DNA of 24,140 bases from a virus: the IMG/VR virus record IMGVR_UViG_3300031963_000913, positions 1-24,140 of that record; one strand, 5' to 3'. The translations under genes and the position numbers were made by a program. Under the pieces are notes generated by a model, which ran no database searches, had not been told where the DNA came from, and worked only from the letters and a program-made list of their open reading frames with translations. Positions 196 to 20,294 of the stretch are shown in pieces; position 1 is the first letter of the stretch, and each line of letters opens with the position of its first letter.

Positions 196-383
196 TGAGA
201 AAAGATTGGTCCCACTGGACTATCTATTTCAATGCCAACCACTTGTATAACTGGGGCATTGGTATCAACTATTACCACGAATATGAATCAGCACCATTTG
301 AGATGCTTGCTAGAATTTGTCAGATAGACCTGCTATTGTTCAATATCACAATTACTCGATGGGAAAAACGGCAGTGGATATAA
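195..383 (+). CDS. Small aromatic-rich phage protein of unknown function
   Basis: A 62-aa protein rich in Trp, Tyr, His and Asn (for example WTIYFNANHLYNWGIGINYY) with a hydrophobic C-terminal half (ICQIDLLLFNITITRW). It starts on the last base of the preceding stop, with GGGAG 5 nt upstream of the ATG, and runs 10 nt past the likely GTG start of the next gene. The aromatic pattern and coupled start support a real gene. I do not recognise a domain, and no function should be assigned. The alternation of hydrophobic and aromatic residues suggests a small beta-rich fold rather than a membrane helix. Confidence 0.65.
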   Translation: MRKDWSHWTIYFNANHLYNWGIGINYYHEYESAPFEMLARICQIDLLLFNITITRWEKRQWI

Positions 384-1315
384 AAGAATTACTTATCAAG
401 GCGCTACACGATAAAGAGAACAAGCGCCCACGTTCTACTCAGGTTCAGGTAGGACCATCTGAATTAGGTGGTTGACGTCGTAAAGTCTGGTACAAGTTAC
501 ATAACCAGCCTGAGACTAACGAGAACGAGATGAAGTTAGCAGCGATTATGGGTACTGCTATTCACGGTGCCATTGAAAAAGCAATGGCTGATAACAAAGA
601 AGTTTTGATTGAGCAGACCGTAGAACATAACGGTATGAAAGCACACGTAGATCTCTACATCCCTGGGACAGGAGATGTAGTTGATTGGAAGACAGTCAAG
701 GTGAAGAACCTTGCCTATTTTCCAAGCCAGCAGCAACGCTGGCAAGTACATACTTACGGATACCTCATAGAACAAAGTGGATTGGGGAAGGTCCACAATG
801 TGCATCTTGTGGCTATTCCACGAGACGGTGACGAGCGCGATGTAAAGGTCCACTCAGAGAAGTACGATTCTTCCATTGCGCTTGAAGCCCTATCTTGGTT
901 GGAAGGTGTGAAGCAATCAGAGTTTCCACCAGAGCCTGAAAAGGATGAGAGTTACTGTAAGTTCTACTGTAAATACTATGACGCATCAGGCGAGATGGGA
1001 TGCGTTGGTCTAAAAAAAGAACGTACAAAAACTGAATTACCACTCATTGAGAATTCAGATACTGCTACCAAAGCCTTGCAATATCTACAACTAGATAACC
1101 AAATAAAGGATCTCACTACACAGAAAGATGCTTTGAAAGAAGAACTTGCTGGAGTAGTGGGTGTCACCGATACAGGAGTAGAAGTTCGTTGGTCTTCTGT
1201 CGCTGGTGCTAAACAAGTGAATAAGGAAGTGGTCAAAGAACTTCTTGGCTTCGTTCCTACTATTGAAGGGAAAGAATCCCTTCGACTTTCTATCAAACAT
1301 ACTGGAGGTAAATAA
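374..1315 (+). CDS. Cas4/RecB-like PD-(D/E)XK Fe-S nuclease with one in-frame TGA
   Basis: Read from GTG 374, the frame encodes 313 residues with one internal TGA at codon 34 (473-475). The nuclease features are clear. GTAIH is near residue 63; VDLY (D93) and the DWKT pair (D104, K106) form the D...(D/E)XK site; QQRWQVHTYGYL is the RecB-family Q-x-x-x-Y motif. A cysteine trio (C195, C199, C210) closes the domain, as in Cas4/AddB proteins that bind a 4Fe-4S cluster. The fourth ligand normally sits near the N-terminus in a context like the one here (VGPSELGG-[TGA]-RRKVWYKL), exactly where the stop falls. A coiled segment and a small C-terminal domain follow. ATG 359 is in frame too but lacks a ribosome site. 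Without readthrough, an ATG at 530 could give a 261-aa product lacking the first ligand. Likely role: end resection or recombination in phage replication. Confidence 0.75.
473..475 (+). other. In-frame TGA at the expected first Fe-S cysteine codon
   Basis: The frame is open on both sides of this TGA, and homologous-looking sequence continues across it (SELGG-stop-RRKVWY). One substitution (TGC or TGT to TGA) would create it. The next base is C, giving the leaky TGAC context. An imperfect hairpin (CTGGT 487-491 pairing with ACCAG 504-508) starts 11 nt downstream. TGA is used as a normal terminator by several neighbouring genes (2796, 3278, 4288, 4897, 6107), so this is not a general code change. 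Confidence 0.8.
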
Positions 1316-6283: not shown

Positions 6284-6305
6284 GGAACTAGTCAGTAGTG
6301 TCCTT
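6282..6305. terminator. Possible bidirectional hairpin between convergent operons
   Basis: AAGGA-ACTA (6282-6290), loop GTCAG, TAGT-g-TCCTT (6296-6305): nine pairs with one bulged G. It spans the stop codons of both convergent genes, which are only 8 nt apart. There is no long U-run on either strand, so intrinsic termination would be weak. Confidence 0.4.
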
Positions 6306-6717
6306 TGCGTTGATGATAGCGATAAGCCTTACAAGGTGTTCCATAACGCTCACTAATGTAACGTAAGCCTCGCAGTATTTGGAGTTCAGGGTCTCGACTT
6401 CTCTCTCCAAGCATTTGAGCGATTCCAAAAGCGCTGCTTCTAGGGTTCTGTGCGAAGTGGTCAAACCTGCTCTCACGGGTCCATAGATCGTGGAGGCAGA
6501 GCCACTCTCGTCCTCGCCAACCAAACGCAACCCACGCATAGGTCTTGGCTCTTTCTCTATTTTCATTCTTCTCCTCCCACGTAGCCTTTGTCCTGCTCAT
6601 CTGTGTTGCTTTTCTCGGATCGAGATGAGTTACCTCGTGTGTTCCTACTAGAACCAATATCATTGTTAGTAGCGGTAGCGCCACTAATATCCAACCACGC
6701 CCTTCCATTAGCCTCAT
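6292..6717 (-). CDS. Membrane-anchored lytic transglycosylase (SLT-like)
   Basis: A 141-aa protein. Residues 9-25 (WILVALPLLTMILVLVG) form one N-terminal membrane helix or uncleaved signal. The C-terminal 70 residues carry a small SLT/goose-lysozyme-like domain: EWLCLHDLWTRESRFD with likely catalytic E82, NPRSSAFGIAQML, then a QILRGLRYISERYGTPCKAY segment. This is the motif order of transglycosylases that cleave the GlcNAc-MurNAc bond with 1,6-anhydro product formation. Its place at the end of a leftward train of small genes, rather than in the virion module, suggests a role in lysis or cell-wall remodelling during infection. Methionine 4 is an alternative start. Its first 155 nt overlap the upstream gene in another frame, an unusually long overlap. 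Confidence 0.85.
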   Translation of the reverse strand: MRLMEGRGWILVALPLLTMILVLVGTHEVTHLDPRKATQMSRTKATWEEKNENRERAKTYAWVAFGWRGREWLCLHDLWTRESRFDHFAQNPRSSAFGIAQMLGERSRDPELQILRGLRYISERYGTPCKAYRYHQRKGHY

Positions 6718-6868
6718 CAGTTAGCCTCTCCTTCTCAAGTAATTCCTTGTATTGGTCGGGGTACTGCTGAGCAAGGCGGGTTAGCGCTCTCGCCCTCGCC
6801 CTCTGATAATTGCGTAGCCATACGGCTCGCTTCTCAGAGTTCTGTCTGCGTCTATCTATCGTTTTCAT
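6563..6868 (-). CDS. Basic phage protein of unknown function
   Basis: A 101-aa product. Residues 1-58 are helical and strongly basic (RRRQNSEKRAVWLRNYQRARARALTRLAQQYP..), ending near an ANGRAWLDISG strand. The remaining 40 residues are Ser/Asn/Asp/Gly-rich and probably disordered. The disordered part is encoded where the frame overlaps the transglycosylase signal region, which suggests that the tail is constrained by the other gene. The WLRNYQRARARALTRLA type of helix is common in small actinophage proteins with presumed nucleic-acid binding. GGGAG lies about 10 nt before the ATG, inside the tiny membrane ORF upstream, whose 3' end it overlaps by 17 nt. Confidence 0.65.
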   Translation of the reverse strand: MKTIDRRRQNSEKRAVWLRNYQRARARALTRLAQQYPDQYKELLEKERLTDEANGRAWLDISGATATNNDIGSSRNTRGNSSRSEKSNTDEQDKGYVGGEE

Positions 6869-6938
6869 TGAGTTTATGCTCCCATATAATCAGCAGATAG
6901 GCAAGAATACAGACGGCTATTACACCTAGAAATATCAC
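6852..6938 (-). CDS. 28-aa single-pass membrane peptide
   Basis: Starting at GTG (6938-6936) in a GTGA overlap with the preceding stop, with GAGGAG upstream, the frame encodes a hydrophobic helix of about 18 residues (IFLGVIAVCILAYLLIIW) and a short charged tail (EHKLNENDR). Without it there would be a gap in an otherwise overlapping gene train. Directly upstream of a transglycosylase, a holin-like or accessory lysis function is conceivable but unproven. Confidence 0.6.
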   Translation of the reverse strand: MIFLGVIAVCILAYLLIIWEHKLNENDR

Positions 6939-7162
6939 CCTCTACTCCTCTCGCTTGTGATAGTAGCCAGCACCAGCGCCGTCACTTCTATCTTGTCGGT
7001 TACCAGCACAGGGTTCTCGATGTCCTGCTCATTCCATACACTCACAAAGATAGAGTTATCTAGCCCTCGTCTGAACCATTCAACGGCGTCAGACGGGCTT
7101 GCTCCACCCCACGCAATATCGCCCTTCCTATCCATTACCTCATAGAAATTGACGAGTTTCAT
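6935..7162 (-). CDS. Small conserved-looking phage protein
   Basis: A 75-aa protein beginning VNFYEVMDRKGDIAWGG, followed by a helix (SPSDAVEWFRRGLDNSIFVSVW) and strands (PVLVTDKIEVTALVLATIT). The alpha/beta composition and the GGASPSDAVEWFRRG turn look like a compact domain; I recall similar early proteins in actinophages, all of unknown function. Start in an ATGA overlap with the gene before; stop in a GTGA overlap with the membrane peptide. Confidence 0.7.
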   Translation of the reverse strand: MKLVNFYEVMDRKGDIAWGGASPSDAVEWFRRGLDNSIFVSVWNEQDIENPVLVTDKIEVTALVLATITSERSRG

Positions 7163-7362
7163 ACTTCACTCCCACAAACTAGACAGGTTACTTCTTCGAC
7201 AGGTTGTTCTATCTCACAAGCATCACAGTCTTGCCACTTGATATGTAATAACTGTTGATTATCTTGTCTATCTTTGACAAACTTTCTGACTGATCCGTCT
7301 CCGAAATTGACATACATTTCGTAGAGAAAATCAGATAACTCTTTCTCTTCATACAGTTTCAT
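7159..7362 (-). CDS. Small protein with C-terminal zinc ribbon
   Basis: A 67-aa product with AGGAGGAGAAG just before its ATG. The first 40 residues are an acidic then basic helix/strand region. The end carries CDAC (C46, C49) and CLVC (C60, C63), a classic zinc ribbon. Likely a protein- or nucleic-acid-binding adaptor. Function unknown. Confidence 0.7.
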   Translation of the reverse strand: MKLYEEKELSDFLYEMYVNFGDGSVRKFVKDRQDNQQLLHIKWQDCDACEIEQPVEEVTCLVCGSEV

Positions 7363-7519
7363 TCTTCTCCTCCTTGTAGTTGATTAGTTGTAGTTCATTC
7401 AAGGCATTCACCATACGGATTAGGTTCGCCCCTGCCTCCTTGCTATCTCCCTCTACCATTTGCTTGATCGCAAGGTCACGGCAGAGGTCTGCCTTTGCTT
7501 GATAGTATTCTTTATTCAC
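7349..7519 (-). CDS. 56-aa helical protein
   Basis: GTG start (7519-7517) with GGAGG 6 nt upstream. The product is one long helical run (QAKADLCRDLAIKQMVEG, then SKEAGANLIRMVNALNELQL) ending in a charged tail whose codons also supply the ribosome site of the next gene. It overlaps both neighbours by 8 and 14 nt. Function unknown. Confidence 0.65.
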   Translation of the reverse strand: MNKEYYQAKADLCRDLAIKQMVEGDSKEAGANLIRMVNALNELQLINYKEEKNETV

Positions 7520-7652
7520 TTGCTTCCTCCTCCAATAGTCCTTCCAATAAATTGAGTATTCCTGTCACCTGTTCAGGTTCATCTCCTTCTCGCCAAGAAT
7601 ATGACGCTAAGAAATCGTATTGCTCCTTGAGTAATCCTTTATCTATATTCAT
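7512..7652 (-). CDS. 46-aa acidic helical protein
   Basis: ATG 7652 preceded by GGAGGAGAGTA. The product (KEQYDFLASYSWREGDEPEQ, then ILNLLEGLLEEEASE) is acidic and helical and may form a helical hairpin. It overlaps its neighbours by 14 and 8 nt, the pattern of the whole train. Function unknown. Confidence 0.6.
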   Translation of the reverse strand: MNIDKGLLKEQYDFLASYSWREGDEPEQVTGILNLLEGLLEEEASE

Positions 7653-7803
7653 TACTCTCCTCCATTTCTTTGATTAGGTCATCTATTTCAGGAGAGTAGG
7701 CTACTCTATCCGCCTTCTCTTCCTCTAAACCACACGCAGTTTCGGCGTGCTTTGTTAGTGTGCGATCAGAGAAGTTCCACCCACATACACCACACTTAGG
7801 CAT
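7639..7803 (-). CDS. 54-aa zinc-finger-like protein
   Basis: Started at ATG 7803 because GGAGGAGAGTA directly precedes it; an upstream in-frame ATG would extend it without a ribosome site. C4-x2-C7, then H19-x4-C24 (KCGVCGWNFSDRTLTKHAETAC) give a C2HC finger, followed by an acidic tail. The finger resembles DNA- or RNA-binding knuckles, but binding is not shown. Confidence 0.7.
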   Translation of the reverse strand: MPKCGVCGWNFSDRTLTKHAETACGLEEEKADRVAYSPEIDDLIKEMEESNEYR

Positions 7804-7963
7804 TACTCTCCTCCTCGCACTCAGTATCATCGTGAACCTTTCGATCCCACTTACTCTCCTCATTCAACATCTCACAGCACGCACCGCAGATATCATTCTC
7901 ACATCTGTCACACGGCACAGAGTCAGGGAACAACTTATCTCCACACTCTATACACCTAGACAT
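7796..7963 (-). CDS. 55-aa cysteine-rich protein
   Basis: ATG 7963 preceded by GAGGAGGT. Cysteines at 4, 7, 18, 21, 26, 29, 30 and 49 (CIECGD, CDRCENDICGACC) allow two zinc sites of RING or double-ribbon type. The tail is charged. It overlaps its neighbours by 8 nt on both sides. Confidence 0.7.
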   Translation of the reverse strand: MSRCIECGDKLFPDSVPCDRCENDICGACCEMLNEESKWDRKVHDDTECEEESNA

Positions 7964-8132
7964 TGACTACCTCCTCTGAACAGTTGTGTTCTCCATTGTT
8001 GTATTCACCGCACGCACCGCAGGCGTGCCACTTGCTCTCATAATCGGGATCATAGACACACCGTTGCCCGTGATAACTAGACCAATGCTCGCCACACCCC
8101 ACGCATTTATCGTTCTTGTCATAGTTACTCAT
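7956..8132 (-). CDS. 58-aa cysteine/histidine-rich protein
   Basis: ATG 8132 shares one base with the preceding stop (TAATG). Ligand pairs are C10-x2-C13 (CVGCGEHW) and C38-x2-C41 (CGACGEY), with C25, C51 and several His between. Two zinc sites are likely. It resembles its neighbour at 7796-7963 in layout but not in exact spacing, so common ancestry is possible but not shown. Confidence 0.65.
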   Translation of the reverse strand: MSNYDKNDKCVGCGEHWSSYHGQRCVYDPDYESKWHACGACGEYNNGEHNCSEEVVNV

Positions 8133-8254
8133 TACTCGCCCTCTCTCTCCTTGATTTCTACCTTACTCATTACCCACAGCACCGCCCCGATTAGTAGGGC
8201 GATACCTAACACTTGCGCGGTGGCTTGCCACCCTCCTAGATATATGTCGAACAC
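8132..8254 (-). CDS. 40-aa single-pass membrane peptide
   Basis: GTG start (8254-8252) sharing one base with the preceding TAG; GAGGAAG lies about 12 nt upstream. One hydrophobic segment (ATAQVLGIALLIGAVLWVM) is followed by a charged cytosolic-type tail (KVEIKEREGE). It is the second tiny membrane gene of this operon. Possible roles include superinfection exclusion or lysis timing; none is supported beyond topology. Confidence 0.6.
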   Translation of the reverse strand: MFDIYLGGWQATAQVLGIALLIGAVLWVMSKVEIKEREGE

Positions 8255-8574
8255 TATGCGCTCACTTCCTCTTCTGCTAATTCTTCTTCCAATTCCTCAA
8301 TGGCTTCGTTGAACAAATCGGTGTAGTAGAGATATAGGTCAAGCCCCATTAGACCAATAATCGTAATCTCTCCCCCCATACCTAACTCAGCATAACCGCG
8401 ATTATCGTATTCGCTAGGTAACTCTTGCCATTCTCTAATTATCTGATTAGAGTAAACGGGAAGATAGCCGTCCACCCATTCGCCCGAATTGTCTTTGATA
8501 TCGTCAATTTCTTCCCCATTGGATAGGGCGGTACGGATTTCTTGCTTCATCTGTTCTACTGTTGTCCTGCTCAT
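8254..8574 (-). CDS. Acidic phage protein of unknown function
   Basis: A 106-aa acidic product starting at ATG 8574 with AAAGGA about 8 nt upstream. The N-terminus is helical (EQMKQEIRTALSNGEEIDDI), the centre aromatic (YLPVYSNQIIREWQELPSEYDN), and the end an acidic coiled stretch (NEAIEELEEELAEEE). High negative charge is seen in DNA-mimic and anti-defence proteins of phages, but charge alone is not evidence of that role. It has its own leader element (8575-8677), unlike most genes of the train, so it may be the first gene of a sub-operon. Confidence 0.7.
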   Translation of the reverse strand: MSRTTVEQMKQEIRTALSNGEEIDDIKDNSGEWVDGYLPVYSNQIIREWQELPSEYDNRGYAELGMGGEITIIGLMGLDLYLYYTDLFNEAIEELEEELAEEEVSA

Positions 8575-8677
8575 TGTCTTATCCTTTCAATGTGGAGGCT
8601 AGTTCCTCCCCTCCCCCGCAGGATAGTCTAACCCTGCGAGGAAAGGCAAGCACCAACTCGATCGAGTTCCCTCTCTC
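8575..8677 (-). promoter_or_regulatory. Leader element A with two hairpins
   Basis: Read leftward, this gap holds a 14-bp perfect palindrome AACTCGATCGAGTT (8655-8668), a GCTTGCCTTTC box, hairpin CGCAGG/CCTGCG, a GGGGAGG run, hairpin GGAGG-AACTAG-CCTCC, and GAAAGGATAAGA just before the start codon. The box order matches element B (9267-9339). I see no convincing -10/-35 pair. Confidence 0.55.
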
Positions 8678-8953
8678 CTAAAAATGATTTTCGTATTGGT
8701 CTATCGCCCATTCATAGAGAGCGCCCTCTGTAAGAGTCACTCTTTCGGTGTCGTTGAAATACTCAACGCTTACCTCGTTGAGGTCTAAATCCTCCTGTAT
8801 CTTTACGCCGTCCTCATTGGGAAAGAAAAAAGACATAATGCGGAAGCGGTTCGGTGCGCTTTCGGCATAGACAAAAGGGTTCGCCTCGTTGCCTTCCTCG
8901 CGGTCTGCCTCTGTTGTTGCTAGTAGTTCCGCCTCTCGTTGCTTGAGGTTCAT
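8678..8953 (-). CDS. Phage protein of unknown function (91 aa)
   Basis: ATG 8953 in an ATGA overlap, with GAGGAGG upstream. The N-terminus is a charged helix (QREAELLATTEADREEGNEANPF), followed by a mixed alpha/beta domain (NRFRIMSFFFPNEDG.., EDLDLNEVSVEYFNDTERV, and a final helix YEWAIDQYENHF). Acidic overall. I recognise no family. It is the last gene before leader element A. Confidence 0.68.
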   Translation of the reverse strand: MNLKQREAELLATTEADREEGNEANPFVYAESAPNRFRIMSFFFPNEDGVKIQEDLDLNEVSVEYFNDTERVTLTEGALYEWAIDQYENHF

Positions 8954-9069
8954 TGTTTAGCCTCCTCTAGTTCTTTCGCGCACTTATCGCAGACATTATC
9001 GTTCGGAAATTGCGGGTCATAGACCCATTTACCGCACGCCTTATCGCCTACCCCTAGACATTCGCTCAC
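8950..9069 (-). CDS. 39-aa zinc-ribbon peptide
   Basis: GTG start (9069-9067) in a GTGA overlap with the upstream stop and GAGGAGG a few bases before. Cysteines C4, C12 and C27-x2-C30 with one WVYDPQFPND loop form a probable minimal zinc ribbon. The WVYDPQF stretch recalls VYDPDYESKW in the 58-aa protein at 7956-8132, suggesting that the two are related. Confidence 0.6.
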   Translation of the reverse strand: MSECLGVGDKACGKWVYDPQFPNDNVCDKCAKELEEAKQ

Positions 9070-9266
9070 TTTGTAGCCTCCTCTAGTTCTGTGGTGATGT
9101 GGTAGGTCTCTTCATTGCGTTTTACACATTCGCAATACTCCTCACCACAGGGACAGAGTTCCGCCCCTCCTGTCCAAAATGCGTCGTACTTAGCCTCTGC
9201 CTCTTCCTGAGTCTCTGCCTCTATGTAGAGCACTTCTGTAATTACCTCAAATTGGTAGCGCTTCAT
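9066..9266 (-). CDS. 66-aa protein with a CxCxxxxCxC cluster
   Basis: ATG 9266 with AAAGGATAAGA upstream (leader element B). A beta-alpha unit (YQFEVITEVLYIEAETQEEAEAK) precedes a tight cysteine cluster C38-x-C40-x4-C45-x-C47, then a polar tail. The YEVTTEVLYVEAETEEEAEA type of repeat is common in small phage proteins. The cluster may bind zinc or be redox-active. Confidence 0.7.
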   Translation of the reverse strand: MKRYQFEVITEVLYIEAETQEEAEAKYDAFWTGGAELCPCGEEYCECVKRNEETYHITTELEEATK

Positions 9267-9339
9267 TTCTTATCCTTTCGGGGTTCTAGGTCTAGAACCT
9301 CCCCACCGCCCACCCGTGAGGGTGAGCGATAGGCAAGCG
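9267..9339 (-). promoter_or_regulatory. Leader element B with two hairpins
   Basis: Read leftward: GCTTGCCTATCGC, hairpin CACCC-tcac-GGGTG, GGGGAGG, an 18-nt palindrome GGTTCTAG-AC-CTAGAACC (9282-9299), then CGAAAGGATAAGA before the start codon. Same order of boxes and hairpins as element A, with different stem sequences. Confidence 0.55.
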
Positions 9340-9522
9340 CTAAGCCTTGTAAACCGCTCCTAGAAATCGGAGGGAATCAAAGCGAGGGTTCTCTACGGAT
9401 AACCATTCAACGACATCGTTGACGGCTTGGTCTACTGCCTTACCTTCGGCGGTCTTTGGTTCAACGGCTAGAACTAGGCGGTTCATCACCTTTGCTAGTT
9501 CTACATAGTCTTTTCTAGTCAT
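9340..9522 (-). CDS. Small MTRKDYVELA-type phage protein, first gene of the leftward operon
   Basis: A 60-aa product started at ATG 9522, which has AAAGGGG 6 nt upstream; a longer reading from 9594 would cover the palindromic operator and has no ribosome site. It begins TRKDYVELAKVMN, an opening seen in many small phage early proteins, followed by two helices (KAVDQAVNDVVEWLSVENPRF). Function unknown. As first gene it is directly exposed to the control region at 9523-9740. Confidence 0.65.
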   Translation of the reverse strand: MTRKDYVELAKVMNRLVLAVEPKTAEGKAVDQAVNDVVEWLSVENPRFDSLRFLGAVYKA

Positions 9523-9542
9523 TTCTGCCCCTTTTCGGTTCT

Positions 9543-9560
9543 TTAGAACATTTGTTCTAA
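9543..9560. promoter_or_regulatory. Operator-like palindrome 1
   Basis: TTAGAACA-TT-TGTTCTAA is a perfect inverted repeat just upstream of the first leftward gene. Its core GAAC-N4-GTTC has the shape of Gram-positive/actinobacterial LexA (SOS) boxes, although flanking bases differ from the usual CGAAC...GTTCG. Confidence 0.55.
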
Positions 9561-9563
9561 TCG

Positions 9564-9594
9564 TTGTTCGGTATCTCCGCCAACGAGAGAACAA
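9564..9594. promoter_or_regulatory. Inverted half-sites TTGTTC / GAACAA
   Basis: TTGTTC (9564-9569) and GAACAA (9589-9594) repeat the half-sites of the two palindromes with wider spacing. Possible secondary binding site of the same regulator. Confidence 0.3.
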
Positions 9595-10757: not shown

Positions 10758-12632
10758 GTGACTGTAACCCCGAACAAGACCAAAGAGTCAGATAGAGCCA
10801 AGAAGGTCATACTCCAATGTATGGCTGAAGGTATGACTGTGGAAGCGGCAGTCAAGACTGCTGGTAAATCCATCAAGTCCTATGAGTACTATCGTCGGGT
10901 AGATCCCACATTCAAGTCGTTGGCTGATAGAACCCGCCTCGGTTCTGTAGAAAAGAACTGGGCTGAGGAATCAGCCCTTGGTCTAGACTTTGTTACCTGG
11001 AGACAAAAGTACCTCAGATCCAAGACCTTTGGTCACCAGAAGAATCTGATAGATGTGATAGAAGGACGCGAACCTTCCTGGCTCCATCCATCAATGAAGT
11101 ACGAAAAAGGTATTGCAGATAACCGCATCCTTTTGAACATCCCACCCAACCACGCCAAGTCAATGACGGTCACGGTGGATTATGTTACCTACCGCATTGT
11201 CAATAACCCCAACTTTAGAGTTCTTATAGTTTCCCAAACCCAGCGTTTAGCGGCTGACTTCCTTTATGCTATAAAGCAGCGACTAACGCATCCAATGTAC
11301 GAAGAACTACAGCAGGCCTACGCCGCTGGGGTTGGGTTCAATACTAAGACAGCCTCCTGGCAGGCTACCCGTGTTACCTTTGGTGAAGAACTACGTGAGT
11401 CTTCTGAAAAAGATCCAAACCTAGAAGCCGTCGGTATCGGCGGTCAGATCTACGGTAAACGCGCTGATATGATTATCATAGATGACGCTGTAACCTTATC
11501 AAACGCCAATGACTTTGAACGACAGATCAAGTGGCTCACCCAAGATGTACGAAGCCGTCTGAACCCCACAGGTAAACTTATTGTGGTAGGTACCCGCGTT
11601 GCACCAGTAGACCTATACAAAGAATTACGTAATCCAGATCGCTACCCTGGTGGCTTAGTTCCCTGGACCTATCTGGCTATGCCAGCACTTCTTGAGACAA
11701 ACGAAGACCCAGAAAAATGGGTTACACTCTGGCCCTATTCCGATGCTCCATTTGATGGACAAGAAGAAGTAGATAAAACAGAAGAAGGCTTATACCCTCG
11801 TTGGAATGGTAAGCATCTATTTGCTGAACGCCAGGCTATGGATACCTCCACCTGGGCGCTAGTCTACCAACAGCAAGATGTTTCTGATGATGCAATCTTT
11901 GACCAAGTTTGTGTGAAAGGCTCCATTGATGGAATGCGAAAAGCAGGTCGTCTGGTGCCTGGCAATCCAGGTCATCCCAAAGACCTCAACGGTTTCAGTT
12001 TTGTTTGTGGACTCGACCCAGCAATGGTCGGAGACACAGCGGCGGTATGTTATGCAGTTGATCGCATTTCTCATAAGCGCTACATTGTGGACGCTATCAA
12101 GATTACGCGTCCTACGCCTGCACAAATCAGACAACTCATTACCGATTGGACTCACGTATATGCACCATCGGAATGGATCGTGGAGCGTAACGCCTTTCAA
12201 TCTTTTCTCACGCAAGATGAAGGAATTAGACAGTTCCTTGCATCCAAGGGAGTTGTACTAAGAGAGCACCACACTGGTAATAACAAGTGGGATGCAGGCT
12301 TTGGTGTGGCATCTATGTCTACACTCTTTGGTACCAAGCAGCAAGATGGAAAGCATCACAGAGATAATCTGATTCATCTACCCTCAGACCAAACAGAAAA
12401 TATCAAGAGCCTTATAGAACAACTTATTACTTGGTCACCTACGACTAAGGGTAAGACCGATATGGTGATGGCCTTGTGGTTCTGTGAGATTAGAGCACGT
12501 GAGTGGCTCAACAACGGAATTCACGCAGCACATCATCTCAAGAATCCATTTTTGTCCCGCTATGAACGGGGCAAGAGAATGGTTGTCAACATTGACAATC
12601 TACTCGCTGAACAGGAAAGGCAATTTATCTAA
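10758..12632 (+). CDS. terL: Terminase large subunit (ATPase and nuclease)
   Basis: A 624-aa protein from GTG 10758, 5 nt after the preceding stop. The ATPase domain has a variant Walker A IPPNHAKS (128-135), Walker B DMIIIDDAV (D242-D243) and a coupling segment IVVGTRVAP. The RNase-H-like nuclease follows with CGLDPAM (D420), WIVERNAF (E476) and TDMVMALWF (D568), the three metal-binding acidic residues expected for concatemer cleavage. It powers DNA translocation into the prohead through the portal encoded two genes downstream. Residues 10-60 (ILQCMAEGMTVEAAVKTAG.. YEYYRRVDPTFKSLADRTR) form an extra helix-turn-helix-like region resembling small-terminase DNA-binding domains. No separate small subunit gene is evident nearby. 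Confidence 0.95.
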   Translation: MTVTPNKTKESDRAKKVILQCMAEGMTVEAAVKTAGKSIKSYEYYRRVDPTFKSLADRTRLGSVEKNWAEESALGLDFVTWRQKYLRSKTFGHQKNLIDVIEGREPSWLHPSMKYEKGIADNRILLNIPPNHAKSMTVTVDYVTYRIVNNPNFRVLIVSQTQRLAADFLYAIKQRLTHPMYEELQQAYAAGVGFNTKTASWQATRVTFGEELRESSEKDPNLEAVGIGGQIYGKRADMIIIDDAVTLSNANDFERQIKWLTQDVRSRLNPTGKLIVVGTRVAPVDLYKELRNPDRYPGGLVPWTYLAMPALLETNEDPEKWVTLWPYSDAPFDGQEEVDKTEEGLYPRWNGKHLFAERQAMDTSTWALVYQQQDVSDDAIFDQVCVKGSIDGMRKAGRLVPGNPGHPKDLNGFSFVCGLDPAMVGDTAAVCYAVDRISHKRYIVDAIKITRPTPAQIRQLITDWTHVYAPSEWIVERNAFQSFLTQDEGIRQFLASKGVVLREHHTGNNKWDAGFGVASMSTLFGTKQQDGKHHRDNLIHLPSDQTENIKSLIEQLITWSPTTKGKTDMVMALWFCEIRAREWLNNGIHAAHHLKNPFLSRYERGKRMVVNIDNLLAEQERQFI

Positions 12633-12928: not shown

Positions 12929-14665
12929 ATGTTATCAGTCAAAGAGGTAGTCGCAAAGGTTGCTCGTCTACAGACGAAGTACTCTGCTCGCGACCAGCGT
13001 ATGCGCGACGTGCTATCAGTACGTCAAGGAGACATCAGCAAGGTTTACCCTGCGATGTTCTCAGAAGATTACCCAAAGCCTCTTGTTGCTAACTTCGTAG
13101 ATGTTGCTGCTCGTGACCTCGCAGAGGTAATGGCACCACTGCCATCATTCAACTGCGCTGCTACCAATATGGTTTCAGACTCAGCACGCAAGGCTGCAGA
13201 TACCAGAACTCGTATCGCTAACTATTACGTCTCTATGTCTGAGTTGCAGATTCAGATGTATAACGGTGCTGACTGGTTCAACACCTACGGAATGCTGCCA
13301 GCAATGGTTGAGATGGATTACGAGACAAACAATCCACGTATCCGCTTGCTCAATCCATTTGGTGTCTATCCTGAGATTGACAGATTTGGTCGTTGCACAT
13401 CACTTACTCAAACAATTCAAACTGACGCTGAGACTTTATCAGCGCAGTATCCAGAGTTTGCTTCCCAGATTATGCCTAAGATGGCATTCACAATGGGTAG
13501 CCCTTATATCACAATGGTCCGTTATCACGACAAAGACCAAGACTTGGTATTCCTACCAGATCGCAATAACTTAGTTCTATCTAACTTACCTAACCCAACT
13601 GGTAAGTGTATGGCTCGCGTTGCTGTTCGCTCATCTTTAGATGGCGAAGCACGTGGTCAATTTGATGATGTTCTAGCGGTGCAGTTGGCACGCGCTAGAT
13701 TTGCAGTTCTGCAAATTCAAGCAGCAGAAAAGTCTATTCAAGCACCGATTGCTATTCCGCAGGATGTCCAAGAACTCGCACTTGGCCCTGATGCGATTAT
13801 GCGTTCATCTAATCCACAGGCAATCCGCCGTGTGCCGCTAGAACTTCCACCTGGAGTCTTTACAGAATCAGGCGTTCTAGAGCGCGAACTACGTCTCGGT
13901 TCTCGTTATCCAGAAGTTCGCTCAGGAAACATTGACGCATCTATCATTACAGGTCGCGGAGTTCAAGCACTACAGGCTGGCTTTGATACACAAGTACGTG
14001 CAGCGCAAGCACAGTTTGCTCGCCTCTTTACTGAACTTGTATCTCTCTGCTTTGAAACAGATGAAAAAATCTTTGGCAATATGACCAAAGAAATCAAGGG
14101 CGTAGATGATGGTACTCCATTCAATATGAAGTATGTACCAAGCCGCGCTATCAATGGTGAGTACGGTATAGATGTGCGCTACGGCATTATGTCTGGTATG
14201 AATCCCAACAATGCCATCATCGCTTTGCTACAAATGCGTTCTGACAAACTTGTATCACGCGACTATGTACGTCGTGAAATCCCGATGGAGTTGAATGTTA
14301 CTCAAGAAGAACAACGTGTTGACATTGAAGAGATGCGCGATTCTCTTCGTGTTGCTGTTGCTCAGTATGCCCAGGCTATTCCAGCGATTGCTGCACAAGG
14401 TCAAGATCCTTCTCAGATTGTTGCTCGAATCGCCGAGGTAATCAAGGGTCGTCAAAAAGGTTTACAACTAGAAACTATTGTGGAGAAGGTATTTACACCA
14501 GAGCCACAACCTGAAGTCCCAGCAGAAATGATGGGCGGTGAAGTTCCAGCAGCAGGTATGGCCCCCGTTCCTGCCTCGCAGCCAACTCCAGAACAAATGG
14601 GTGCGGCCCCTGCTGCTGGCGCTCGTCCAGATATTGCTACGTTACTCGCATCTATTGCAGGGTAG
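12929..14665 (+). CDS. Portal protein
   Basis: A 578-aa protein with AGGAA upstream of ATG 12929. Its length, its position two genes after terminase, and its pattern fit portal proteins: a helical N-terminus (VKEVVAKVARLQTKYSARDQRMRDVLSVRQGD), a YPKPLVANFVDVAARDLAEVMAPLP segment, the wing region around NPFGVYPEIDRFGR, and a long helical stem with FDTQVRAAQAQFARLFTEL. A Pro/Ala-rich C-terminal tail (from about residue 525) is typical of actinophage portals. Portals form the dodecameric vertex ring for DNA entry and exit. The match is by pattern and context rather than by a catalytic motif. Confidence 0.85.
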   Translation: MLSVKEVVAKVARLQTKYSARDQRMRDVLSVRQGDISKVYPAMFSEDYPKPLVANFVDVAARDLAEVMAPLPSFNCAATNMVSDSARKAADTRTRIANYYVSMSELQIQMYNGADWFNTYGMLPAMVEMDYETNNPRIRLLNPFGVYPEIDRFGRCTSLTQTIQTDAETLSAQYPEFASQIMPKMAFTMGSPYITMVRYHDKDQDLVFLPDRNNLVLSNLPNPTGKCMARVAVRSSLDGEARGQFDDVLAVQLARARFAVLQIQAAEKSIQAPIAIPQDVQELALGPDAIMRSSNPQAIRRVPLELPPGVFTESGVLERELRLGSRYPEVRSGNIDASIITGRGVQALQAGFDTQVRAAQAQFARLFTELVSLCFETDEKIFGNMTKEIKGVDDGTPFNMKYVPSRAINGEYGIDVRYGIMSGMNPNNAIIALLQMRSDKLVSRDYVRREIPMELNVTQEEQRVDIEEMRDSLRVAVAQYAQAIPAIAAQGQDPSQIVARIAEVIKGRQKGLQLETIVEKVFTPEPQPEVPAEMMGGEVPAAGMAPVPASQPTPEQMGAAPAAGARPDIATLLASIAG

Positions 14666-15050: not shown

Positions 15051-15441
15051 AGGCCCACTAGCAGGACCAGCAGGTCCAGGCAAGTTCTCCAAGAGAACAG
15101 ATGGATTAGAATTCAAACCAGATACTTATGGTCAAGGTGTAGAGCAAGCCGCAATCAAAGCAGGTGCTCCACTTGCAAAGACTGCAGATGTTCGTGGATT
15201 ACCAGCAGGAGAAGTTCGTGCTGCAGCACAAGAAGCAGTAACTCCGTTATTTGCACCAAGCCAACGTCCAGATGAACCTATTACTTCAGGTATTGCAATG
15301 GGCGAAGGACCTGGACCAGAAGTTCTAGGCGGAGCAAGACCAGCACAAAAACTTTCTGACACTTTAGCGCAACTATTACCTTTTGATGATACAGGCGATA
15401 TAGCAATCTTGTATCAAGAGGCATTAGCACGGGGTAACTAA
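15043..15441 (+). CDS. Unknown virion-module protein (132 aa)
   Basis: Gly/Ala/Pro-rich product beginning ARGPLAGPAGPGKFSKRTDG, with a compact C-terminal helix pair (KLSDTLAQLLPFDDTGDIAILYQEAL). Encoded between two coupled neighbours. No family recognised; the low-complexity start and folded end suggest a linker or adaptor protein bound to portal or to the giant protein next to it, which is inference from position alone. Confidence 0.65.
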   Translation: MARGPLAGPAGPGKFSKRTDGLEFKPDTYGQGVEQAAIKAGAPLAKTADVRGLPAGEVRAAAQEAVTPLFAPSQRPDEPITSGIAMGEGPGPEVLGGARPAQKLSDTLAQLLPFDDTGDIAILYQEALARGN

Positions 15442-18400
15442 TGGCTGATCTGAATACCGCAGCATCGGCAGCAGGTCTTACTCCAGCACAAAAGAAACAG
15501 ATTGAAAAACTTTCTAAAGCGCTAGAGGCCCACAAGACTCTTTTGAACCTACCAGCACCTGTTGCTGAAGAGGCGTATCAAAATAAATTTACTGCATCTG
15601 AAAAACAAGATATGCAGAATAAGTTTGGTACAGAGTCTCCAGAGCAAAAGCCACCTCGTGGTTGGCTAGGAACTGCTTGGCATTACACAGGTTCCAAAGT
15701 TCTTGATGTTCTTGAGGCTGGCTCTGATTTATCAACTCGTGTTGCTCGTACTGGAATCATAGCCCTCGAAGAAGGAATCAATCTTTCTGATGCTTGGGAT
15801 CGCTCTGATAAGAGTGGACAAAAAGTATTCAATGAAAAAAGACTTCAGAAGGCTACAAAGAAATACGGCGATACAGTAATAGGTTTAGCCAAGCGCCTTC
15901 AAAGCGGTGAGAAAGTAACCGACATAATGGTTACTGCTACACCTGAAGAACAGTACTGGCTCAAGATTGCTGACAATACCGTCAAAGATATCAATGGTAT
16001 CAAAGACGAAAAAATCAAAGCCGATAGGGATTTGTTTGAAGATGCACTTGCATCGGTAAACGCTGCACAGTATTCACCAGGTCGTTTTATAGCAAACATT
16101 GTAGATACTATTACACCAGGTGACTTATATGAAAAAGGCTTTTTCTATAAAGTTACATCTGGAGCACTCGATGCAATGTATCGAATTGTTGCAGATCCAT
16201 TTATCCTACTTGGAAAAGCAAAGCGTCTTTATGATGTCAACAAGTATGCCTACGAAGTAATCGTTGCTTCAGCAAAAGAAGGCGGAGAAACTGCTGCCCA
16301 GTATTTTGCTAAGGATTCTACAGTCCAGTTCTGGAACAGATATGGTCAGGAACTAGACAAGATTCGCAAGGCTACTGATAGTGGCGATAGAGAAGCAGCA
16401 GCAAGAGCGCGTATTGAAGCGCAGCGGATTGCTCCAGAGTTCGGTCCTAGCGTAATCAACCTATTCAACAAAAACAATATCTCAGATATTGAGACAGCCA
16501 AAGCGTTCTTCTATAACTCAGAAGATGCTTTCAAGGTAATGGCTGCAGGAACTGCTCGTCGCCGCATCATTATGCCTCGCCTAGACCCTCTACGTAGAGC
16601 ACGTCTAAGCACTTTGACTACTGCTAATAAGGTTTTCAACATAGATACAGTTGGTCCAAAACTAGTTGATAATATGTTCGGGTATCCAGCAACCGATGAT
16701 GGTATCTACAAAGCCCTTGTTGAGGATAGAACAAAACTGGTAGAGGCAGCCCAAGGTCTAAAAGTCAAGGGTGTAGATCGTTTCCGTTTTTCTAGCGCAG
16801 ACATTGCACGTCGCTATGACAATGCAAAGCGTAAGTTTACTCGCATCCCGCTATTTAGAAACGATGAATTCAACCTTCGTGAAGCAGATGCCCCAGATAA
16901 GATTTATCAGTTAGCAGCGATTGCACTTCCAACTCGTGAGGCGCGTCTTATTTCTGAAACATTTAGAGCAACTGATGATCTTGGTCGTCGTAAAGATATC
17001 TATGATGGGTTATGGAATACCCTTGTAGAAATACGTGGAGCCAATAAGTTTCCTGCTGGTCAGAATGTAGCACGACTACTTCGCCAAAAGGGTAAAGAAA
17101 AATACAGCGTTGCTGGAACTGACGACTACATTGACTTTGGTGTATTGCCAAGTGAAATGAATGACATAGTTACTGCTCCTAGCCTAGTAGACCTTGATCG
17201 TCTGGCTGGTAGAAGCGGTCTTGTAAATACCATTGTTGGATTTGGTAATACAAAGTGGGCAGAAAAGATGACCAACTACTGGTCATTCTTGACTCTTGCT
17301 GGTCCTCGTTACGCTATTCGTAACGCCTCAGAAGATTTGATGGTAAACCTTGCTATCGGTAATAGTGTATGGGGTATTGCTAAAAGCAAGTATCTATCTA
17401 CGCGTCTCAATACCGCTATTCAACTAGCGCCAGGTTTGACCAGGGCTGAGAAATTTGCATCTGATCCACTTGGTATCATTATGCGATTTGTCAATAAGAG
17501 CCAGGCTGATAAGTATTCTGGAGAAATCAAGGCAATTCAAACAACTCTTGAATCTCAAAAGAAGCAGATTGCTGATTTCGCTAGAATAGCAAAGTCCAGT
17601 AAAGATGCAAACGAAGTTGCTACAGCCAAGGCTAATATCAGCCGTATCAACAAAGAAATGAATGCTAAGGGTGGAGTCGTAGACCAGACTCGCGTCATCC
17701 TTGCTCAGGCTTTATCAGAAGGTCGTACCCAAAACTTCCTCAAGAAGTTCAATATCAAACTACTTGATGATGAAGGCGTAGATATTCTAAAAGAGCAAGT
17801 TCTCTTTGGTGATATTGACAACGTAGTATCTATTATTTCTGAAGGCGGATTCAACTTCGCATCAGGCTCTACATATATTGATGGCGCTTACGACTTAGCC
17901 AAGTCACTTGGCGTAAGACAAGCAGAACTTCGCCTTGATTTAGGTGGACTCAAGACTCGCTATGGAAGAACTGCGACAGATCGCGGATTCCGTGAGATTG
18001 GCATAATCAAAGAAAACGAGGCATCTCTAGTTGCCTGGGCTTTACGTATTTCATTCTATGGAAATGATGAACTAGGCTCTATAGCACTTGCTAATTTGTC
18101 AGATGATGCTAACGAGGCTGCTAATACAATCAAGACTATCCGCACTTACCTAGAAGGTAACAAGCAATTAGTCTCAGATGCACGTCTTTTGGCAGGAAGA
18201 GATTTATCTCTTGATGAATACGCCAAGATAGTCTATGACCGAGCAAAGTCTTTAGTAGCGGAACGCTCTACTGGTAAAATCAATACTGCTTTGCTAGATA
18301 AGATTCGCGTTTTTGATGACGACCTAGGTAGATACAAGATTTCAGGTAAACTAACACTTGAAGATGTCTACGATATAGACGAAGCATTGCTTCCTAAGTC

Positions 18401-20294
18401 TGTTGTTGGACCAGAATTGGTACCAGTAGCAGATGTAGATAACTATACAGCGCCATTGATGCAAAATGGTTGGGTATGGCTAGGACTATCGAACGCTCGT
18501 ATCTCTCGTCAGCCTATTGTATTCAACGAAATGGTACAGATTCGCAAGCAAATGCGTAAGGCTGGATTTGAAAAGGCTTATCTTGATGCCTTTACTCGTG
18601 ATATCAAAGATCCTGCAGCCAAAGCAGCAGCACTTGTCAATGCAAGAAAAGAACTTGCTACCTTGGTAGAGGAAAGAGCAACATCACAGGTACTTGCATA
18701 CGTGGATAATCCACTTATCCGTAGCCAAGTATCGTTCTCACTGCGTAACTTTGCTCGCTTCTATCGTGCTCAGGAAGACTTCTTCCGTCGTTTCGGACGT
18801 ATTATTCGCTATAACCCAGAGGCAATCCAAAGATTGCTACTTACTTGGGATGGCGTTGCACATTCAGGCTGGATACAAGAAGATGATCGTGGAGAAAAGT
18901 ACTTTGTTTACCCACATTTCGCTCCAGGATATAAGGCTATCCAGGGAACTCTTCGACTTCTAGGTATTGAGCAGGACTTCAAAGTACCATTCCCAGTGCA
19001 ATTCGGTGGTTCTGTAAAGATGCTCACACCATCTATCAATACAGAGTCGTGGTTGCCTACATTCTCTGGCCCTGCAGCAGCGCTTCCTATGACTATGCTT
19101 GAGAGTATTTCTGACATATTCAAACCAGGTATGGGAGATACGATTGCAAGATACACTCTTGGAGAGTATGCCGTAGGCGAAACCCTAGTATCGCGTCTAT
19201 TGCCAGCACACGTCAACCGTTTTGTTGCAACATTTGACCAAGACGAGAGAAACTCTCAGTATGCTTCTGCAATTCGCAAATCAGTTACTTATCTAGAGGC
19301 ATCAGGAAATGGTATTCCTAAGCGTTATGATGAGGCTGGAGAACTACTTCCACCATCACCTGCAGAACTTGAAGAGTATCGCCAAAAACTGCGGTCAACA
19401 GCGCTAGGTATCCTAGCAACACGATTTGCATTCGGCTTCCTTGCACCAGCATCACCATCTATCCAACTAAAGTCTGATATGTCAGAATGGATTCGTGACT
19501 CTGGCTTGGCTAACTGGAAGCAAGCATTCAACGATTTGCGTGAAAAGTATGATGGAGACTATGACGCAGCAATGCGTAAGTGGGTAGAGATTTACCCAAA
19601 TACAGTCCCATATACTGTCACAGAATCAGAGCGAAAGACGGTAGCATTCTTTGGTTACGCTGAAGAATCGGGTAGATTCGTAGAAGAAAACTCAGGTTTA
19701 TTTGAAGATCACCCAGAAGGCGCTGCATTCCTCATCCCACATAAGGGTGCATTCTCATTTGATACATACAGAACTATGTCGGAGATGGGACTTCGTACCA
19801 ATAAGCGAGTAGAAGATTATATTCGTGAGGTACAGACCGCTGCAGACCTGCAGACATACTACGACAAGCGCGATGAGTATGAAACACAACTTGAGTTCGC
19901 TGGTTCTGATTTTGCTCGTAGCATATTCCGTCAAGAGTTCAACTCTTGGAAACAGAGATTCTTTGCTGGTCGCCCATTAGTTCGTGAAGAACTAAACCAA
20001 GGCGCAGAAAAAGCAATCCAGCGAGTAGAGGCTTTGGATGATCTACAACAGATGCTCAGCAATCCAAGGTATGCAGCAGTTAGACCAGAAACTCAAGATG
20101 TCTTACGTAAGATGATGGATGCTTACACATCGTACAAGACACAGAAAGAGATTCTAGAACTAACTGGAAGCAATTCAGACTTTATGGATTCTATGAAGGA
20201 CAGCACAATCGTTCAGATCCGTGAACTTGCTACCTTCAATGAAAATACTCAAGCAGCATACGACGCATTGTTTGCAAGACTATTAGGCGACTAG
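15441..20294 (+). CDS. Giant (1617-aa) probable virion protein
   Basis: Starts at ATG 15441 sharing one base with the previous stop. It is the longest gene of the window and is largely helical, with charged stretches throughout. Noticeable parts: a 30-residue helix at the N-terminus (AQKKQIEKLSKALEAHK), a segment near 611-632 (WSFLTLAGPRYAIRNASEDLMVN) resembling the W..LTL.RP.Y.IRN motif of large phage internal or 'polyvalent' proteins, coiled regions near 690-745, and an aromatic/Arg patch near 1093-1130 (LRNFARFYRAQEDFFRRFG). I find no protease, transglycosylase or transmembrane signature. Position after portal and before the scaffold gene suggests an ejected or internal head protein, but a tape-measure-like role cannot be excluded. 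Confidence 0.7.
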   Translation: MADLNTAASAAGLTPAQKKQIEKLSKALEAHKTLLNLPAPVAEEAYQNKFTASEKQDMQNKFGTESPEQKPPRGWLGTAWHYTGSKVLDVLEAGSDLSTRVARTGIIALEEGINLSDAWDRSDKSGQKVFNEKRLQKATKKYGDTVIGLAKRLQSGEKVTDIMVTATPEEQYWLKIADNTVKDINGIKDEKIKADRDLFEDALASVNAAQYSPGRFIANIVDTITPGDLYEKGFFYKVTSGALDAMYRIVADPFILLGKAKRLYDVNKYAYEVIVASAKEGGETAAQYFAKDSTVQFWNRYGQELDKIRKATDSGDREAAARARIEAQRIAPEFGPSVINLFNKNNISDIETAKAFFYNSEDAFKVMAAGTARRRIIMPRLDPLRRARLSTLTTANKVFNIDTVGPKLVDNMFGYPATDDGIYKALVEDRTKLVEAAQGLKVKGVDRFRFSSADIARRYDNAKRKFTRIPLFRNDEFNLREADAPDKIYQLAAIALPTREARLISETFRATDDLGRRKDIYDGLWNTLVEIRGANKFPAGQNVARLLRQKGKEKYSVAGTDDYIDFGVLPSEMNDIVTAPSLVDLDRLAGRSGLVNTIVGFGNTKWAEKMTNYWSFLTLAGPRYAIRNASEDLMVNLAIGNSVWGIAKSKYLSTRLNTAIQLAPGLTRAEKFASDPLGIIMRFVNKSQADKYSGEIKAIQTTLESQKKQIADFARIAKSSKDANEVATAKANISRINKEMNAKGGVVDQTRVILAQALSEGRTQNFLKKFNIKLLDDEGVDILKEQVLFGDIDNVVSIISEGGFNFASGSTYIDGAYDLAKSLGVRQAELRLDLGGLKTRYGRTATDRGFREIGIIKENEASLVAWALRISFYGNDELGSIALANLSDDANEAANTIKTIRTYLEGNKQLVSDARLLAGRDLSLDEYAKIVYDRAKSLVAERSTGKINTALLDKIRVFDDDLGRYKISGKLTLEDVYDIDEALLPKSVVGPELVPVADVDNYTAPLMQNGWVWLGLSNARISRQPIVFNEMVQIRKQMRKAGFEKAYLDAFTRDIKDPAAKAAALVNARKELATLVEERATSQVLAYVDNPLIRSQVSFSLRNFARFYRAQEDFFRRFGRIIRYNPEAIQRLLLTWDGVAHSGWIQEDDRGEKYFVYPHFAPGYKAIQGTLRLLGIEQDFKVPFPVQFGGSVKMLTPSINTESWLPTFSGPAAALPMTMLESISDIFKPGMGDTIARYTLGEYAVGETLVSRLLPAHVNRFVATFDQDERNSQYASAIRKSVTYLEASGNGIPKRYDEAGELLPPSPAELEEYRQKLRSTALGILATRFAFGFLAPASPSIQLKSDMSEWIRDSGLANWKQAFNDLREKYDGDYDAAMRKWVEIYPNTVPYTVTESERKTVAFFGYAEESGRFVEENSGLFEDHPEGAAFLIPHKGAFSFDTYRTMSEMGLRTNKRVEDYIREVQTAADLQTYYDKRDEYETQLEFAGSDFARSIFRQEFNSWKQRFFAGRPLVREELNQGAEKAIQRVEALDDLQQMLSNPRYAAVRPETQDVLRKMMDAYTSYKTQKEILELTGSNSDFMDSMKDSTIVQIRELATFNENTQAAYDALFARLLGD

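Follow-up and report, generated by a model that had tools for sequence, protein, structure and literature searches.

The window analysed here is a virus record of 24,140 bases, and a frame near its start raises the question of why a TGA stop stands where a Cas4-like nuclease should encode the N-terminal cysteine of its iron-sulfur cluster. The first-pass annotation, made from the sequence alone, offered four explanations: a sequencing or assembly error, a recent nonsense mutation, programmed readthrough, or the insertion of selenocysteine.

The identity of the gene was established from profiles and from the predicted fold of a close relative. The frame, as translated from GTG 374, ends in TAA at 1313-1315, and an in-frame ATG at 359 means that the start possibly lies 15 nt upstream of the GTG. 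The codon at the aligned start is variable among the 13 relatives viewed (GTG, ATG, ATT/ATA or others), and the true start in each of them is uncertain. A short frame at 195-383 lies on one side of the gene and a frame at 1319 on the other. Only a single match to the nuclease gene was present within the window record. When translated through the stop, the frame matched the Pfam families Cas_Cas4 (E=2.6e-9, 37.8 bits against a cut-off of 22.7) and PDDEXK_1 (E=1.9e-7, 31.8 bits against a cut-off of 22), and the natural relative L003 matched the PHROG exonuclease family phrog_1674 (E=8.8e-30). The features of the locus are listed in Table 1.

Table 1. Features of the nuclease locus, in window coordinates
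Feature	Position	Strand	Basis
Frame of a Cas4-like PD-(D/E)XK exonuclease, broken by TGA	374..1315 (or from ATG 359)	+	Sequence, Pfam, fold of relative L003
TGA in frame, in place of the N-terminal Fe-S cysteine codon; base 475 unlike all relatives compared	473..475	+	Sequence comparison
Proposed SECIS hairpin, 5 bp; not above chance, same fold in Cys-encoding L003	487..508	+	Folding versus shuffles
Downstream open frame from ATG 530, without the N-terminal 52 residues; Met not conserved	530..1315	+	Frame list, relatives
Cys195 codon, putative C-terminal cluster ligand	956..958	+	Translation, relatives
Cys199 codon, putative C-terminal cluster ligand	968..970	+	Translation, relatives
Cys210 codon, putative C-terminal cluster ligand	1001..1003	+	Translation, relatives

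A structural model of L003 was built from alignment A3, which contains 50 sequences. Its mean pLDDT was 69.0, and residues 14-34 and 45-62 were under 50. An earlier model from 17 relatives was discarded (mean pLDDT 46.9). Foldseek placed SSO0001 (4ic1) first with an E of 2.2e-7 and Pcal_0546 (4r5q) as the second protein with an E of 7.3e-6, at modest TM-scores by query length of 0.39 and 0.33, respectively. In VIA-align, SSO0001 4ic1 (138 residues, 3.1 A) and human MGME1 5zyt (152 residues, 5.0 A) tied at Z 12.9, followed by 7mi4 (Z 12.0, 167 residues, 3.9 A) and Pcal_0546 4r5q (Z 9.8, 173 residues, 4.7 A). Searched by sequence, the PDB yielded nothing for A1 (E 0.01) and, for A2 (E 1), two hits on an unrelated protein, both at chance level. 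L003 is predicted from its model to have a Cas4-like fold, and together with the Pfam profiles this upholds the original naming of the gene as a Cas4-like nuclease.

In Cas4 proteins, four cysteines bind the cluster, one of them N-terminal and the other three C-terminal (PMC4176176, PMC5704561). The sequence and its translation confirm that the TGA is codon 34 counted from GTG 374, the codon of the N-terminal cysteine, and that the other three cysteines, at codons 195, 199 and 210, are intact, as had been annotated. The IMG/VR search found 378 relatives, of which the best 80 were kept (51 distinct proteins), and the ranking by match quality favours unbroken copies. The allele printed in the window lacks the four-cysteine set, a stop replacing the N-terminal cysteine, whereas all four of C34, C195, C199 and C210 are kept in 80/80 of these relatives. 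The constancy of Cys195 and Cys199 is partly due to selection, because both lie within YCKFYCKY, one of the search peptides behind this set; none of these peptides spans C34. C34 is also invariant in A3, but this alignment is uninformative on the point because 45 of its 50 rows were retrieved with a pattern that demands the cysteine. From the aligned sequences, codon 34 is very likely the cluster cysteine position. The ligand role of residue 34 rests on alignment and not on geometry, because the L003 model is weak over residues 14-34. The relatives are Cas4-like members, and the printed window allele is the broken one.

At codon 34 itself, the comparison of homologues that had been proposed with the annotation gave cysteine in every one of the best 80 of 378 relatives (44 TGC and 36 TGT) and a stop in none. 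The nuclease frame was unbroken to its stop in 79 of them, and the remaining one runs off its contig. The closest records narrow the difference to one base. Over 3603 bases, L003 and the window share 3602, and the sole mismatch is base 475. L005 differs at two of 4150 bases, 475 and 895, and is itself the odd one at 895. L082, a longer stretch of the same record as L005 and the longest near-identical sequence, differs at five of 12,349 bases (475, 895, 4462, 12320 and 12335); the last four changes are synonymous and 475 alone alters a protein. All 13 loci covering base 475, from seven records, oppose the window there. The window is likewise opposed at base 12320, a synonymous change, by its three covering loci.

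A pattern search with the TGA form of the motif, in which the arginine codon following the stop is restricted to CGN, returned no viral records, in a search that may omit records very near the window; a twin record with the same TGA that was left out as too near is possible. The Cys form was found in at least 120 viral records and matched all 80 of the best relatives. In genome contigs, the pattern written with TRA had no hits; this is uninformative since the collection contained no confirmed relative. Among the sequences compared, the C-to-A change that creates the TGA is peculiar to this record; apart from this isolated one-base change, the phage gene is an ordinary exonuclease of the Cas4 family.

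Because cysteine is found in 80/80 relatives and only base 475 differs from L003, readthrough and selenocysteine are disfavoured, and an error or a nonsense mutation is left. Both had been named as candidates at the outset and are upheld by these two observations. We infer that a base-call or assembly error is the most likely source of the TGA, with a probability of roughly 0.6. The one-base C-to-A difference at 475 would then be an error in an ordinary phage exonuclease gene, and the virus would encode cysteine at codon 34, as its relatives do, giving a normal four-cysteine nuclease. Base 475 sits 475 bases from the record end, which was counted toward an error, as was the finding that the sole protein-changing difference of the five from L082 falls in a conserved gene. 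C:G>A:T is a described class of error arising from DNA damage during library preparation (PMC5521083). The changed C stands in a G-C-C context, unlike the CCG or NCG contexts named in that paper, and this counts against an error. Errors are also rare in the window record because there is no other mismatch to L003 across 3603 bases, which again speaks against one.

The alternative that survives best is a recent and real nonsense mutation, which we consider possible but less likely than an error. The record would then represent a rare phage genotype in which the TGA leaves a 33-residue peptide and, at best, a restart from ATG 530. Apart from base 475, the stretch shared with L003 is identical throughout, which speaks for a good consensus; genotypes nearly identical to this one are on record, and the gene has only one match in the record. 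Cys-to-Ala mutants of Pcal_0546 and SSO1391 are reported to retain nuclease activity (PMC4176176), which was counted toward a real allele, though here the change is a stop; SSO0001, in contrast, is reportedly inactivated by cluster disruption (PMC4176176). The frame of another relative, L255, also ends early, elsewhere in the gene. In L255:1082-1867 it is 262 residues long, some 50 fewer than in the others, and more stops follow in frame; a frameshift or a stop, real or an error, is possible. Therefore, isolated disruptions, real or not, do appear in records of this nuclease family. Against a real nonsense allele, 79 of the 80 best relatives are unbroken, although the ranking favours unbroken copies, and purifying selection would fit the remaining four differences from L082, all of them synonymous, although four is few. 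The literature search on nonsense microdiversity found no pertinent papers.

The frame from ATG 530 misses the first 52 residues and thus, as had been noted, the N-terminal ligand. At this position (Met53) the best 80 of 378 relatives have Met in 26 and Leu in 54, and the 80 loci of the Cys-pattern set have Met in 14, Leu in 41, Ser in 19, Ile in three, and Val, Lys and Arg in one each. ATG 530 was rejected as a conserved internal start on these counts, which also weigh against a real nonsense allele; a chance restart there is possible. The position of the stop was also compared with chance. Among the 2817 single-base changes of a relative's gene, 147 create a stop, and four of these fall at the four cysteines, so that a random stop would hit a cluster cysteine about one time in 37; those four are among the 28 changes that give TGA. 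Such a coincidence is uncommon, but as a post hoc observation it is not compelling.

Readthrough, whether programmed or by a suppressor tRNA, would allow some full-length protein to be made, and we consider it very unlikely. In its favour, a C after TGA makes for a leaky stop, and the frame downstream of it is intact and also conserved among the relatives. However, none of the best 80 relatives has the stop, the TGA pattern finds no other case, and a search of the window for tRNA genes gave none. If the signal were programmed, the relative with 99.97% identity, which encodes cysteine, should share it. The earlier suggestion of programmed readthrough in a TGAC context is thus argued against by the 80/80 cysteines and the single-base difference from L003.

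Selenocysteine in place of the cluster cysteine is more improbable still, and the data agree with its original ranking as the least supported option. In its favour, a TGA aligned with the cysteine of homologues is the classical sign of a selenoprotein candidate. The proposed hairpin exists as described, with CTGGT (487-491) pairing with ACCAG (504-508) around a 12-nt loop that starts with AC, but its stability is not above chance: folding gave a z of -0.96, and 37 of 200 shuffled sequences were as stable or more so, while a 66-nt stretch gave a z of 0.03, with 98 of 200. The same site folds alike in Cys-encoding L003 (z of -0.92), and in two other relatives with cysteine the z was -1.50 (L020) and -1.23 (L054). 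The loop lacks the expected G, as the first-pass annotation had said. Folding against shuffles and the comparison with L003 give no support for a bacterial SECIS here. A search of Rfam gave no match at or above a gathering score. Retention of the TGA across the family, expected of a selenoprotein, was seen in 0/80 of the best relatives and in no viral record by the TGA pattern, and the nearest Cys form is one base away in 3603. Selenocysteine was rejected on the shuffle-level hairpin, the lack of Rfam or tRNA matches and the lack of a TGA-pattern record. A cysteine codon may in principle become a selenocysteine codon by one base, but this needs a pre-existing signal, for which the hairpin is no evidence. 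No pertinent literature on selenocysteine with phage was found. It is highly improbable that a single base change has just made the N-terminal Fe-S ligand of Cas4 in this phage lineage a switch based on selenocysteine or readthrough, one that relies on host machinery and has no lineage-specific signal. Genome-wide recoding of TGA was rejected because TGA terminates other window frames, namely five on the plus strand (2796, 3278, 4288, 4897 and 6107) and four of the eight minus-strand frames listed.

Elsewhere in the window, among the matches listed for the large terminase (10758-12632), the best from annotated phages belong to Streptomyces phages, with about 43-44% identity, and records of 'Caudovirales sp. 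ct2KA10', which are unannotated, reach about 47%. These terminase relatives hint at an actinobacterial host. A 578-aa frame at 12929-14665 follows the terminase and had no Pfam or PHROG match at E 0.001; its position is what we take to be the usual place of the portal gene. Short minus-strand frames form a block at 6288-9594 flanked by plus-strand blocks, and a single 1617-aa frame occupies 15441-20294. A scan of the window for promoters and terminators was at shuffle level, and no tandem repeats were found.

These results remove a tempting selenoprotein candidate, in which the stop lies opposite a conserved cysteine, yet near-identical records reveal an isolated single-base change. If the allele is real, it would suggest that the phage is able to lose Cas4. 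Otherwise, it is a reminder to compare such stop calls with sister contigs.

Among known systems, bacterial selenoproteins resemble the window in having an in-frame TGA opposite a Cys column. The window differs in that it has no supported SECIS, no second TGA member was found, and a near-identical Cys form exists. The CRISPR Cas4 proteins SSO0001 and Pcal_0546 carry a single N-terminal cysteine and three C-terminal ones (PMC4176176), as does the window family. In contrast to them, the gene here is a phage gene with a different spacing of the C-terminal cysteines, and no cas1 or cas2 was found among the nine window proteins scanned with Pfam. Cas4-type exonucleases are also known from actinobacteriophages, including Gordonia phages Francois and Tarzan, Mycobacterium phage Firecracker and Arthrobacter phage RootBeer, and the counterpart in Rhodococcus phage Jflix2 is labelled a hypothetical protein. 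L003 is 29-33% identical to five aligned actinophage homologues (five of 160 records matched). In these five, as in L003, the N-terminal cysteine, D93, D104, K106, Q124 and Y128 are invariant, and we read the latter five residues as probable nuclease motifs. The C-terminal cysteines are spaced C-x3-C-x10-C in the window family, whereas those of the five homologues start with C-x2-C, and C34 and C195 are the only cysteines invariant over the eight aligned rows. Where the actinophage homologues have the N-terminal cysteine, the window record has TGA.
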